The notes under the pieces: model-generated | Database searches by the model: none | Told to the model about the DNA's origin: nothing | What the model saw: the letters and a program-made list of their open reading frames with translations, nothing else | Assembly (NCBI RefSeq): GCF_001418225.1 | Contig: NZ_LIPT01000002.1 | Span: forward strand, 62,001 to 126,000 | Direction of reading: 5' to 3' | DNA: 64,000 nucleotides | DNA from: Pannonibacter indicus | Lineage (GTDB): Bacteria; Pseudomonadota; Alphaproteobacteria; Rhizobiales; Stappiaceae | Shown: positions 1,688 through 54,340 of the stretch, piece by piece | Numbering within the stretch: position 1 is the stretch's first letter | How the letters are laid out: every line of letters starts with the position of its first letter | Translations under genes and position numbers: made by a program

Positions 1688-3211
1688 ATGAGCCAGCTGA
1701 TCGTTCTTCATCCCGACGACAATGTGGGTATCGTGAAGGAGCGCCTTGCCGCAGGCAGCGACCCTCTCGGGCTGGGCGTGGCACTCGCCACCCCCCTCAC
1801 TCCGGGCCACAAGGTGGCCCTGACCGCAATCCCCACAGGAGCGGAAATCCTCAAGTTCGGCCAGATCATCGGCCGGGCCAGCAAGGACATTGCCGCCGGG
1901 GAGCATGTGCATACCCACAACTGCGCCTTCGGGGACCACGATCAGCAGTATCAGACCGGTGCCGATCTGGAGCGGGCGAAGGCCGCCGTGCCCTCGCCCG
2001 CCCCGCGCACCTTCAACGGCTATCTGCGCAAGGATGGCCGGGTTGGCACCCGCAACTTCATCGCCCTCTGCGCTACGGTGAACTGCTCTGCCACCGTGAT
2101 CCGCCGGGCAGCCTTCGAGCTGGAAAACTCCGGCGTGCTCGAAGACTATCCGAATGTGGATGGCATCGTCGCCTTTGCCCATGGCACCGGCTGCGGCATG
2201 GCCTCCGAGGGGCGCGGCTTTGATATCCTTCAGCGCGTGCTGTGGGGCCATGCCACCCATCCCAACGTGGGCGCGGCCGTCTTCGTCGGCCTCGGCTGCG
2301 AGGTGATGCAGATCGCCCGCATGAAGCACACCTTCGGGGCAGAAGGCGCGGACCACTTCCATAGCCTGACCATCCAGGAAACCGGCGGCACCCGTGCCAC
2401 CATCGCGGCCATCAAGGCCAAGGTGCTGGAGATCCTGCCCGAGGTGAACAAGGCACAGCGCCAGCCCTGCCCTGTCTCGGCCCTGCGCATCGGTTTGCAG
2501 TGCGGCGGCTCGGACGGCCTGTCCGGCATCACCGCCAACCCCGCGCTCGGCAAGGCATCGGACATGATCGTCGGCCTTGGCGGCACGGTGATCCTGTCAG
2601 AAACGCCAGAAATCTACGGTGCCGAACAGCTGCTGCTGCGCCGCGCTGCCACGCAGAAGGTGGCGGAAGATCTCATCGGCTGCATCCGCTGGTGGGAGCA
2701 TTACACCGAAATGAACGGCGGCAGCATGGACAACAATCCGAGCCCCGGCAACAAGGCGGGCGGGCTGACGACCATTCTGGAAAAGTCGCTGGGCGCCGTC
2801 GCCAAGGCTGGCTCCACGCCGCTGACCGCCTTCTACGACTATGCCGCACAGGTGACGGAACCCGGCCTCGTCTTCATGGACACCCCCGGCTATGACCCCG
2901 TGTCGGCGACGGGCCAGATTGCGGGCGGCGCACAGCTGGTGGTCTTCACCACGGGCCGCGGCTCTGCCTTCGGCTCCAAGCCTGCGCCCACCATCAAGGT
3001 GGCCACCAATGACTTCCTGTTCAACGCCATGCCGGAAGACATGGACCTGAACACCGGTGACGTGCTGTCGAAAGGCATCAGCCTTGAAGCCAAGGGCGAG
3101 GAAATCCTCGACATGATCCTTGCCGTTGCCTCGGGCCAGAAGTCGAAATCCGAAGCCCTCGGCCTCGGCGACAACGAGTTCGTGCCCTGGCAGGTTGGTG
3201 CCGTGATGTAA
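1688..3211 (+). CDS. uxaA: Altronate dehydratase (UxaA family)
   Basis: A 507-residue protein with the two-part UxaA architecture: an N-terminal SAF domain (about 1-95, with GEHVHTHNC near residue 75) and the large C-terminal altronate/galactarate dehydratase domain, which contains KDGRVGTRNF, FAHGTGCGM and GLQCGGSDGLSGI. The family dehydrates D-altronate to 2-keto-3-deoxygluconate using Fe(II). E. coli UxaA is of similar length (495 residues). It starts 12 bp after the preceding dehydrogenase and ends the operon, with copy 1 of the intergenic repeat right after its stop. A galactarate/mannonate-type substrate is less likely but not excluded. Confidence 0.9.
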   Translation: MSQLIVLHPDDNVGIVKERLAAGSDPLGLGVALATPLTPGHKVALTAIPTGAEILKFGQIIGRASKDIAAGEHVHTHNCAFGDHDQQYQTGADLERAKAAVPSPAPRTFNGYLRKDGRVGTRNFIALCATVNCSATVIRRAAFELENSGVLEDYPNVDGIVAFAHGTGCGMASEGRGFDILQRVLWGHATHPNVGAAVFVGLGCEVMQIARMKHTFGAEGADHFHSLTIQETGGTRATIAAIKAKVLEILPEVNKAQRQPCPVSALRIGLQCGGSDGLSGITANPALGKASDMIVGLGGTVILSETPEIYGAEQLLLRRAATQKVAEDLIGCIRWWEHYTEMNGGSMDNNPSPGNKAGGLTTILEKSLGAVAKAGSTPLTAFYDYAAQVTEPGLVFMDTPGYDPVSATGQIAGGAQLVVFTTGRGSAFGSKPAPTIKVATNDFLFNAMPEDMDLNTGDVLSKGISLEAKGEEILDMILAVASGQKSKSEALGLGDNEFVPWQVGAVM

Positions 3212-3214
3212 AAT

Positions 3215-3302
3215 CAACTCTCGATGAGCTCGACTTATCGAGAGTTGGTCAAGCCCGTGTGGCGCTTGAGTATTTTCGAGGCGTGATGCGTCAGCATCGA
3301 AA
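3215..3302 (+). repeat. Intergenic repeat element, copy 1
   Basis: First of four related elements in the window. It begins with an 11-bp perfect inverted repeat (arms CAACTCTCGAT at 3215-3225 and its complement at 3237-3247, loop 11 nt), continues with GGTCAAGCCCGTG and ends in GGCGTGATGCGTCAGCATCG. Its complement carries a 20-codon ORF (3235-3297, minus strand) whose peptide starts MLTHHA and ends GLTNSR. It lies between convergent uxaA and lepA. Confidence 0.8.
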
Positions 3303-3316
3303 GCCCTGCTACACTG

Positions 3317-3345
3317 AAAAAGGCATGGCGCTGGCGCCATGCCTT
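3317..3345 (-). terminator. Rho-independent terminator of lepA
   Basis: A 12-bp perfect stem (arms AAGGCATGGCGC and its complement, 2-nt spacer) read on the minus strand is followed by a run of five T. It lies about 60 bp past the lepA stop, in the right orientation to end the lepA transcript. Confidence 0.8.
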
Positions 3346-3403
3346 GGCTGATCCTTGCGGACTGAAACAATACCCGGCAGAGCAGGTTCGCCGGTATTTT
3401 GTT

Positions 3404-36519: not shown

Positions 36520-36545
36520 GGAAAAACAGCAATCAGGTAAATGCC

Positions 36546-36633
36546 ACTTTTCGATGAGCTTGCCTCACCGGGCAGTAGTCAAGCCCGCGCGGCGGTTGAG
36601 CCTCTTCAAGGCGTGATGCGTCAGCATCGAAAG
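36546..36633 (+). repeat. Intergenic repeat element, copy 2
   Basis: Shares TCGATGAGCTTGCCTCA, TCAAGCCCG and AAGGCGTGATGCGTCAGCATCGAAAG with the other copies. The hairpin is partly decayed but keeps U-G wobble pairs on the plus-strand RNA. The antisense 20-codon ORF is intact (36565-36627, minus; starts MLTHHALK, ends GLTTAR). Lies between the efflux operon and its TetR gene. Confidence 0.8.
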
Positions 36634-36678
36634 TCTTGATAGAAATGATGCGCCAGAACAAAAACCGGACCTGGAAGA

Positions 36679-45863: not shown

Positions 45864-46346
45864 ATGCGCTATGTCATAGCGGCTGTCGGCCGCATGAAAT
45901 CCGGTCCGGAGCGCGAGCTGCTGGACCGTTATCTCGACCGTGCCCGCAAGACCGGCCGGGCTCTTGGCGTGACTGCGGTCGATGTCACCGAGACGGTGGA
46001 AAGCCGTGCCCAGCGCGCAGAGGACCGCAAGGCGGAAGAAGCACAGATTCTGCTCTCGGGCCTGCATCCGCGCGCAAGGCTGATTGCCCTCGATGAAACC
46101 GGCAAGACCATGGCGAGCCCCGCCTTTGCAGAGGTTCTGCGCGGCTGGATGGACGAAGGCTGTCCGGAAATCGTGCTGGCCATCGGCGGCGCGGACGGCC
46201 ACGGCTCCGATCTTCTGGCCCGTGCCGACCTGAAGCTTGCCTTTGGCGCCATGACCTGGCCGCATCAGATCGTGCGCATTCTGGTGGCAGAACAGGTCTA
46301 CCGGGCGCTGACGATCCAGTCCGGCCACCCCTATCACAGGGTTTGA
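45864..46346 (+). CDS. rlmH: 23S rRNA (pseudouridine1915-N3)-methyltransferase RlmH
   Basis: A 160-residue SPOUT methyltransferase: LIALDETGKTMASPAFAEVL, IGGADGHGSDLL, MTWPHQIVRILVAEQVYRA and C-terminal GHPYHRV. Follows rsfS as in many alphaproteobacteria. Its 3' end abuts the decayed repeat copy 4. Confidence 0.95.
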   Translation: MRYVIAAVGRMKSGPERELLDRYLDRARKTGRALGVTAVDVTETVESRAQRAEDRKAEEAQILLSGLHPRARLIALDETGKTMASPAFAEVLRGWMDEGCPEIVLAIGGADGHGSDLLARADLKLAFGAMTWPHQIVRILVAEQVYRALTIQSGHPYHRV

Positions 46347-46352
46347 TGGCAG

Positions 46353-46400
46353 GCCCGTGCGGTGTCTGAGCGAGGCCAAGGCGTGATGCGCCGGCATCCC
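46353..46400 (+). repeat. Intergenic repeat element, decayed copy 4
   Basis: Keeps AGGCCCGTGCGG, TGAG, CCAAGGCGTGATGCG and GGCATC in the same order and spacing as copies 1-3, but the left hairpin is missing and the antisense frame runs on without the conserved stop. Lies directly after rlmH. Confidence 0.55.
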
Positions 46401-46655
46401 TGTCCCTGGCATGGGCAAGATCTGCGGTCAGCTTCACGCAAGATGACAAAATGATCATCTGCACCGGCTTTTCCGGCCCGGATCCCGCCGCATTTGCGCT
46501 CTAGTTTCTCTGCTGTGGAGCGAACGGGACGGTAAACGCTTCGTTAATGACAAGGCCGCATCCTCGCCTCACATATCTGGCTGTCCCGGTGGAATCACTC
46601 TCCGGGCGGAGGGTATGCCGAGACAGGTGCCTCCGGCACATCTGACAGGACGATC
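46401..46655. other. Intergenic region before the EnvC-like gene
   Basis: About 255 bp without a gene. It contains TAAA-N7-TTAA (46533-46547), a degenerate CtrA-like sequence about 110 bp before the EnvC-like start. Nothing else is clear. Confidence 0.35.
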
Positions 46656-53420: not shown

Positions 53421-54227
53421 ATGACAAGCGATACGATCATCAGCGCCTTCATTCTAGGCATTGTCGAGGGTCTGACCGAGTTCATTCCGGTCTCTTCCAC
53501 CGGCCACATCCTGCTGCTCGGCCACTTCCTCGGCTTTGAGAGCACGGGCAAGACCTTCGAGGTGCTGATCCAGCTCGGCGCGATCCTCGCCATCCTCAGC
53601 GTCTATTTCGGCCGCCTGTGGTCCATCGCCACCGCCCTGCCGAACGACCGGCGCGCCCAGCGCTTTGTCGCGGGCATCCTGCTTGCCTTCCTGCCGGCGG
53701 CCGTCATCGGCGTGCTGGCGCATGGCTTCATCAAGTCGGTGCTGTTTGAATCACCGGCCCTGATCTGCACCACCCTGCTGCTGGGCGGTGTTGCACTGCT
53801 GGTGATCGACCGGCTGCCGCTGAAGCCGCGCTATCACAACGCCATGGATTTCCCCCTGCACCTGTGCCTTGCCATCGGTTTCGTCCAGTGCCTTGCCATG
53901 ATTCCGGGCGTGTCGCGCTCCGGCTCGACCATCGCCGGCTCCCTGCTGATGGGCACAGACAAGCGCTCTGCGGCGGAATTTTCGTTCTTCCTGGCCATGC
54001 CGACCATGGCAGGCGCGTTTGCCTATGACCTCTACAAGAACCGCGATGTTCTTTCGATGGACGACGCCACGATCATCGCCATCGGCTTTGTCATGTCATT
54101 CGTGGCAGCTGTCTTTGTGGTGCGCAAGCTGCTGGACTTCGTCTCGCGCCACGGCTTTGCGCCTTTCGCCTGGTGGCGCATTGCCGTGGGCCTTGCGGGC
54201 TTTGCCGGTCTCTATTTCTTCGGATAA
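53421..54227 (+). CDS. uppP: Undecaprenyl-diphosphatase
   Basis: A 268-residue membrane protein with [14 protein letters not shown] (about 15-28) and [17 protein letters not shown] (about 165-181), the two UppP catalytic motifs. Recycles the undecaprenyl carrier for peptidoglycan; also confers bacitracin tolerance. Confidence 0.96.
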
Positions 54228-54237
54228 GGGGCTCATA

Positions 54238-54326
54238 CCAAAACTCGATGAGCTTGCCTCATCGAGTTTTGGTCAAGTCCGTGCGGCGCATGAGCAATTT
54301 CAAGGCGTGATGCATTAGCATTGATG
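54238..54326 (+). repeat. Intergenic repeat element, copy 3
   Basis: Best hairpin: a perfect 15-bp stem (CCAAAACTCGATGAG at 54238-54252 and complement 54258-54272) with a CTTGC loop. Then GGTCAAGTCCGTGCGGCG and AAGGCGTGATGC. The antisense 20-codon ORF is intact (54259-54321, minus; starts MLMHHALK, ends DLTKTR). Lies between convergent uppP and azlD. Confidence 0.8.
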
Positions 54327-54340
54327 CCTTTGATCAAACC

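Follow-up and report, generated by a model that had tools for sequence, protein, structure and literature searches.

A TNA-targeting hairpin MITE in Pannonibacter, very probably moved in trans, whose antisense 20-codon frame is most likely a non-coding by-product

The repeat that recurs in a 64,000-nucleotide stretch of the Pannonibacter indicus genome (hereafter the window; it lies on contig C2, and the genome measures 4.17 Mb) is very probably a mobile, TNA-targeting hairpin MITE that is moved in trans, and its antisense ORF a non-coding by-product. Consistent ends, TNA duplications and an exact empty site together argue for a small transposon served by a TNA-targeting transposase. The repeat would be a non-autonomous transposon (MITE) of Pannonibacter, about 100 bp long and moved in trans, now or recently, by a transposase that duplicates a 3-bp TNA target, most commonly in the context CTNAG; this target rule points to the IS1031 group of the IS5 family as a candidate source of the enzyme. 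About half of the copies appear to have landed on the stop codon of a gene, where the duplication restores the stop and the gene stays intact. The hairpins, which decay with divergence, would be important for the lineage that moves and not for the individual copy after insertion. The antisense ORF, whose ATG falls within the GATGC/GCATC hairpin and whose stop falls within an arm of the first hairpin (H1), would be a mere reading of two conserved hairpins plus linker. The preliminary description of this DNA had seen the repeat and missed its nature as a mobile element. Our results remove a tempting micropeptide and show that structured mobile repeats create conserved-looking small ORFs; they also describe a three-hairpin MITE, clean and high in copy number, that has a defined target rule and an empty site and favours the ends of genes.

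Three good copies and one weak copy lie in the window, and the anatomy of the element is given here on copy 1.

3209–3314, plus strand: copy 1, from target duplication to target duplication (113.9 bits; left TAA, right decayed to CAC)
3209–3211, plus strand: left target copy TAA, the stop codon of a galactarate/altronate dehydratase-like gene (1688–3211)
3212–3217, plus strand: left terminal inverted repeat (consensus TACCAA; here AATCAA)
3213–3249, plus strand: hairpin H1 (arms 3213–3228 and 3234–3249)
3224–3286, plus strand: sense 20-codon ORF, of the same length and in the same element; judged non-coding
3235–3297, minus strand: antisense 20-codon ORF (start codon within H3, stop within H1); judged non-coding
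3250–3268, plus strand: linker with short hairpin H2 (3250–3254 pairs with 3264–3268), part of AAGCCCGTGCGGCGCTTGAGC
3277–3308, plus strand: hairpin H3 (outer arms 3277–3282 and 3303–3308; inner part of GATGC-GTCA-GCATC type, 3285–3298)
3306–3311, plus strand: right terminal inverted repeat (consensus TTGGTA; decayed here)
36539–36644, plus strand: copy 2, flanked by a minus-strand RND adaptor gene and a plus-strand TetR-type regulator gene; carries antisense ORF 36565–36627
46325–46414, plus strand: weak fourth copy, probably decayed (30.2 bits)
54233–54338, plus strand: copy 3; antisense ORF 54259–54321

The linker sequence of the element is AAGCCCGTGCGGCG, and the stretch AAGCCCGTGCGGCGCTTGAGC is common to its distant relatives. 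The dehydratase-like gene ahead of copy 1 scores below the curated cut-off of TIGR03248. Copy 3 lies 5 bp past the stop of an undecaprenyl-diphosphatase gene (53421–54227), ahead of a minus-strand AzlD gene. The stretches of the window that were compared are 94–95% identical to the sister genome (G002, Pannonibacter phragmitetus DSM 14782); in P. phragmitetus, copy 1 has an orthologue at the same place (L150), copy 2 has an orthologue in L172, and L163 occupies the place of copy 3 with different H1 arms. Copy 2, which occupies the divergent control region between the TetR-type regulator and the RND efflux adaptor, is the only good window copy found upstream of genes. At their gathering scores, Rfam covariance models detected only a tRNA within the window. 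A known Rfam RNA was rejected as the identity of the repeat, positions 3150–3400 giving only five matches, all far below gathering scores.

The repeat is present in high copy number. A DNA search with copy 1 found at least 48 matches in the window's genome (40 of 162 candidates scored), and a search with a covariance model of 37 full-length copies gave at least 141 matches at E ≤ 0.001, some of them antiparallel self-matches, with 84 at 60 bits or more (150 of 2214 candidates scored). All five Pannonibacter genomes examined carry it. The element has the size of a MITE (~100 bp) and no transposase gene, and its copies share a consistent boundary, [TNA]TACCAA...TTGGTA[TNA], in which short, imperfect terminal inverted repeats TACCAA/TTGGTA form the ends (pairing in 80.1% of cells, without covariation). 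Target trinucleotides were identical at both ends in 57/104 full-length copies, whereas shuffling gave a mean of 16.7 and a maximum of 30 in 10,000 trials; TNA stood at both ends of 67 copies, 56 of which agreed. Of the 57 copies with identical duplications, 30 carry C at −1 and 38 carry G at +3, CTNAG being the commonest context, and the element follows a TNA rule with YTNAR/CTNAG context. These duplication and context counts cover the copies other than three left-truncated ones (L037, L038 and L043). Finally, an exact empty site was found at the one locus examined for this purpose: relative to P. phragmitetus (L171, 14926–15031), contig C14 of the window's genome is missing exactly the element plus a single TGA. 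Both the empty site (L191, 547–1503) and the filled one (L137, 464–1528) have this target TGA as the stop of the same ORF.

A set of right-end-only copies (L037, L038, L043, L065, L067, L069, L071, L073 and L074) was considered as a second element class and rejected; these look like truncations beside terminator-like hairpins or another IS. Near-perfect right ends are fused to unrelated left sequence at L065, L067/L043, L069, L071, L073 and L074, and this left sequence is several times an intrinsic-terminator-like hairpin and once an apparent end of another IS. The 100-source model search covered loci other than L065–L074, L171 and L188–L190.

We next consider what might move the element. Transposase-domain matches comprised 6 to PF01609 in the window's own genome and, across the five genomes, 18 to NF033580 and 10 to PF13340. 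TACCAA ends were not found around the IS5-type hits, whose ends were scanned at six loci and at twelve loci, and none of the loci analysed had the end pair TNATACCA..TGGTATNA 0.5–3 kb apart with equal TNA. The resident IS5-type elements examined were rejected as the autonomous partner: their ends differ. Members of the IS1031 group of the IS5 family duplicate a 3-bp TNA target in YTNAR/CTNAG context. One IS5-family element (NF033580) in genome G003 behaves in this way, as five copies with an identical 934-bp core (L081, L085, L088, L091 and L094) are flanked by equal TNA in CTNAG-like sites. In this respect IS5-family elements resemble the repeat; they differ from it in encoding a transposase and in ending in GAG... 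(GAGGCTGCC.. in the G003 element) where the repeat has TACCAA, so that the ends of this IS1031-type candidate do not match. Because the G003 element makes TNA duplications but ends in GAG, the mover of the repeat is something we can only infer. The autonomous partner may be extinct, may reside elsewhere or may be of another type, and the absence of a TACCAA-ended transposase among the IS5-type hits examined counts against our preferred explanation.

The target rule has a consequence for genes, since TNA is a stop codon on one or the other strand for every N (TAA, TGA, TTA, TCA) and a copy at a gene's end would thus duplicate the stop harmlessly; where the target is the stop codon, the duplication restores it and the gene product is unchanged. 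By the calls of our own simple codon-usage gene finder, which was used everywhere outside the plasmid, 103/104 full-length copies are intergenic, and the target copy is exactly a gene's stop codon in 52/104 (left end, 36; right end, 16). When only one member was kept from each of 15 orthologous pairs, the count became 44/89 (32 left, 12 right); a further orthologous pair from two other genomes (L181/L185) stayed in the 89, with neither member on a stop codon. TNA sites are scarce in the spacers of this GC-rich genome, and many are stop codons, which makes a copy's own spacer the fair control. With this control, 42/77 copies lay on stops against 26.5 expected when all TNA sites were considered (reached by 0/20,000 simulations), 38/69 against 21.5 for YTNAR sites, and 22/46 against 18.2 for CTNAG sites (p = 0.008), the observed YTNAR and CTNAG counts including copies that have since lost the motif at their own site. 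The remaining 12/89 copies, which had no neighbour on one side, overlapped a called gene or had a boundary conflict, were left out of this test. Strong stop-codon targeting was rejected, as a raw control, in which terminal stops made up 9.9% of the TNA sites in spacers (7.3% in a first version), had overstated the effect. Sequence composition accounts in part for the preference for gene stop codons. The shrinkage of the excess to 22 versus 18.2 with CTNAG sites is a point against our preferred explanation, as is the reliance on our own simple gene finder outside the plasmid.

Annotated genes gave a similar picture of stop codons and a different one of gene orientation. On plasmid p.p-1 of P. 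phragmitetus (NCBI-derived CDS table; 300 of 351 kb examined, the last 51 kb and the second Pannonibacter plasmid being left out), 13 matches were found. An annotated stop codon was the target copy in 6/13, 2/13 lay wholly inside annotated genes, 1/13 overlapped a gene end and 4/13 did none of these. Among the copies placed with our own gene finder, 53/85 lie between convergent genes, compared with 11/64 other spaces in the same loci (p = 2e-8); on p.p-1 this is true of only 1/13 matches. The stop-codon habit is thus confirmed on the plasmid, and the convergent bias is not, which also counts against the preferred explanation.

Covariation and folding revealed that the element is strongly structured. 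In 37 copies, H1 had two-sided compensatory changes in 10/16 pairs, and the whole structure had 50 two-sided cells versus 16.4 by shuffle. H3 is mostly invariant and is thus supported by complementarity, not covariation; an alternative to the H2 pairing of 3250–3254 with 3264–3268, namely 3262–3270 with 3275–3284, scores as well and has similar support. The plus strand of the whole of copy 1 folds with a z of −4.6, and z ranged from −4.5 to −7.3 over both strands of the two copies folded. Watson-Crick pairing in H1 falls from 95% in the least diverged quartile of copies to 78% in the most diverged. Moreover, H1 differences between site-matched copies of two species are mostly one-sided (46, versus 7 two-sided), whereas two-sided changes are commoner among 34 little-diverged paralogous copies (664 to 1021). 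The drop in pairing, together with one-sided change at matched sites and two-sided change between paralogues, suggests that the mobile lineage preserves the structure, which then decays in inserted copies. All two-sided site-matched changes are confined to two loci, L023/L149 and window copy 3/L163. In each of these comparisons (L023 versus L149; window 54233–54338 versus L163) the H1 arms differ yet are self-complementary, with 4 and 3 two-sided changes, respectively, which suggests that copies underwent gene conversion or that the element re-inserted at the same site; an exchange of the whole element may have taken place there.

These data bear on an alternative in which the repeat is a regulatory RNA or DNA structure that the host maintains by selection at each place, such as an mRNA 3'-end stabiliser, an RNase III site or a bidirectional terminator. 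We consider this quite improbable. The hairpins are strong on both strands, in copies with the left end on a stop codon H1 starts about one base past it, copies are concentrated between convergent genes, and either end can sit on stops (32 left and 12 right, n = 89), all of which such a structure would accommodate. However, site-matched copies diverge by 11.8%, compared with 6.8% in their 300-bp, partly coding flanks, and do so mostly by the one-sided H1 changes described above. The precise empty site shows that the one copy concerned is dispensable, a terminator-like site was not found on copy 1 (the sole copy scanned), and the convergent placement is seen in a single plasmid match out of 13.

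The antisense frame presents a second alternative. The preliminary description had reported an ATG followed by 20 codons and a stop on the minus strand of each good window copy, and translation bears this out in 3/3, with the stops TAA, TGA and TGA. The peptides are MLTHHASKILKRHTGLTNSR (3235–3297), MLTHHALKRLNRRAGLTTAR (36565–36627) and MLMHHALKLLMRRTDLTKTR (54259–54321), each followed by its stop, and the shared residues that had been named are present in all three. A stem arm does overlap the stop codon as was claimed; it is, however, not the left arm of H1 but the right (3') arm on the plus strand (3234–3249), i.e., the first arm encountered when the minus strand is read. The conservation described for the three window copies holds for them and weakens beyond, as the frame is intact in only 19/37 copies of a first alignment and in 66/107 copies of a larger one from five genomes. 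An equally long frame on the sense strand is likewise found in each of the three window copies (e.g., 3224–3286) and is intact in 61/107.

Two readings of the antisense frame had been proposed, a translated micropeptide or a by-product of a conserved nucleic-acid structure, and only the latter withstood analysis: ATG and stop lie in two conserved hairpins, while no synonymous bias was detected in the 37-copy, 107-copy or site-matched sets. A preference of substitutions for third codon positions, the check that had been suggested, was not seen in 107 copies in the antisense frame (183/170/200; third-position excess p = 0.35 by column permutation) or the sense frame (239/212/223; p = 0.52). In 15 site-matched pairs between two sister species, antisense differences fell 17/36/25 by codon position, with synonymous, nonsynonymous and stop changes at 15:60:3, so that synonymous differences were fewer than chance (15/78 versus 23.3 expected); the same pairs read in the sense frame gave 44/23/28, 19:75:1 and 19/95 versus 27.9 expected. 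The sense frame was also rejected as coding, since a synonymous excess of up to 1.5 in 37 copies, traced to a few hot columns, was gone in 107. Of the two observations said in advance to speak against translation, the lack of synonymous bias was thus made, while breaks of the frame in most copies were not: an intact ATG, 20 codons and stop are missing in 41/107.

Retention of the frame was then compared with what nucleotide conservation predicts, in copies free of gaps in the ORF (10/107 antisense and 11/107 sense copies had gaps and were left out). The antisense ORF is retained in 69/97 copies versus 50 (sd 5) under uniform placement of substitutions, and the sense ORF shows the same excess (66/96 versus 41). 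Independent sampling of the observed columns predicts 66.7 and 60.8, respectively, and so the 69/97 antisense copies do not exceed what column frequencies give. Because the sense excess is equal and independent columns suffice, the excess in ORF retention reflects where the element is conserved and not the reading frame. Of 5000 dinucleotide shuffles of the consensus, 9.4% contain an ATG ORF of 20 codons or more on the minus strand and 19.6% contain one on either strand, which makes a single such frame in one ancestral sequence unremarkable; related copies inherit the frame from that ancestral sequence. Antisense intactness drops with divergence, from 19/23 in the first quartile to 8/25 in the last (94 copies, two genomes), and the ORF is intact in 22/30 shared (older) copies versus 37/64 others.

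A translated 20-residue micropeptide that spread with the repeat is therefore hard to sustain, and we regard it as extremely improbable. It would fit the intact frame in 66/107 copies, the well-conserved residues MLTHHALK, an SD-like AAGG that precedes the antisense ATG of the consensus by 6 bases, the retention above uniform placement and the absence of decay of the frame in shared copies. The last three observations also count against the non-coding frame of our preferred explanation; shared copies keep the ORF at least as often as others. Yet codon-position bias is absent in 107 copies, synonymous differences lie below chance in the site-matched pairs, and the sense strand performs equally well, with the independent-column model accounting for retention. 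In addition, the stop after codon 20 is absent in both of two distant relatives on viral contigs, where the antisense frame has 25 codons in one and is open across the stretch read in the other. Neither strand of the element shows a sign of coding selection.

Relatives of the mobile element occur outside Pannonibacter. A family-wide scan gave matches at E ≤ 0.001 in 10/87 genomes, namely five Pannonibacter, one genome of another genus (G084; 4 matches, best 7e-27) and four with single weak matches. In an order-wide search of 297 genomes, with 13 candidates scored in each, at least five genomes had matches at E ≤ 1e-6. One of the genomes, G171, has H1 and the linker in common with the element. 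A Methylobacterium-like genome (G200) contains eleven 122-bp relatives (L199, L202 and L205–L213), which are 91.5% identical to an element on a Methylobacterium bullatum record. Seven of the 11 are readable, with TACCAAG...CTGGTA-type ends and identical TNA in 6/7 (three of four by pattern and three more by eye; L206, L209, L212 and L213 were not read for duplications), and in 2/7 the right target copy falls on the stop of a called gene. Their left hairpin differs from that of the Pannonibacter element, and a GACTC-centred (GANTC) right hairpin was found by pattern in at least 7/11. The two relatives on different viral contigs (L224, 8547–8654, minus strand; L225, 4070–4177, plus strand) have replaced H1 arms and a changed outer H3 stem, keep the same linker and most of the inner H3, and lie directly behind a gene whose C-terminus, in our judgement, resembles that of a phage capsid protein. 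A search of an annotated phage collection with copy 1 gave no match at E ≤ 1e-5.

Passages of the literature on known repeats were compared with the element (including parts of PMC5896051 and PMC5727363). In the passages compared, CIR of Caulobacter and Bru-RS of Brucella are intergenic alphaproteobacterial repeats of ~103–118 bp (PMC2229807, PMC2266754, PMC2267715), and CIR is described as two inverted-repeat arms and a linker, with GANTC at a loop (PMC2229807). Membership of the element in this group, all of whose members would then be TNA-targeting MITEs, is possible but somewhat doubtful. The size, the two long arms with linker (~110 bp in all) and the GANTC that the consensus has in one arm, at the loop, agree with it, as do the 7/11 G200 copies with a GACTC-centred hairpin. 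In Pannonibacter, however, GANTC is not conserved, being present anywhere in 50/107 copies and at the H1 loop in 43/107. Moreover, all six CIR frames contain multiple stops according to the part of the review compared (PMC2229807), unlike the element, and the likeness is one of descriptions, not of sequences. The element differs from CIR further in its demonstrated TNA duplications and empty site, as CIR's target duplication carries a question mark in that review's table and more information on mobility is called for there (PMC2229807). The element makes it testable how repeats of the CIR/Bru-RS kind move, a matter left open in this 2007 review. A broader proposal, that a superfamily of hairpin MITEs from Stappiaceae to Methylobacteriaceae, including CIR-type repeats, lives by a stop-codon strategy with the antisense ORF as its accident, is tentative and rather unlikely. 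If the strategy were true, a strong hairpin directly behind the stop codon would be a ready-made 3' end; it can now be tested whether transposons survive in compact, GC-rich genomes by targeting stop codons.

Other small mobile repeats resemble the element in part. RUP of pneumococcus, thought to be moved in trans, and Correia/NEMIS of Neisseria have a length of ~107 bp, short inverted ends, high copy number and hairpins in the passages compared (PMC2229807, PMC10969869); they have TA-type termini or targets where the element has TNA, and for the element the partner IS was not found and about half of the copies sit on stop codons. A description of this element was not found in the literature searched, nor in the repeat and transposon passages of the P. 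phragmitetus 31801 genome paper, and as far as that literature goes a MITE family with a TNA target and a stop-codon preference is new. ORFs in such repeats are not new, as Delihas reported them in 2007 in enterobacterial MITEs, namely ERIC/RU-1, RU-2 and RU-3, in the part of that work compared (PMC2759123). Like ERIC/RU repeats and Rickettsia palindromic elements, which are small mobile repeats with open frames that are sometimes fused to genes (passages of PMC2759123 and PMC2229807), the element is fused to genes in two instances, where a plasmid copy supplies the end of an annotated gene. Unlike in those other repeats, the 20-codon frames here stand alone and are without a coding signature, and the fused tails use another antisense frame.

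Two placements on NZ_CP013069.1 are of separate interest. In a haemagglutinin/contact-inhibition region (L219), two annotated genes (108104–108382 and 121381–121977) have similar tails (KAFDADASRL..AQAPHGL), which are the element read in an antisense frame other than that of the 20-codon ORF, as in reported MITE-gene fusions. At 279920–280025 (L215, 1501–1606), an element directly follows the stop codon of a hypothetical gene, and a RES-family NAD+ phosphorylase gene begins 4 bp past the element; this copy looks to be inside a toxin-antitoxin operon.
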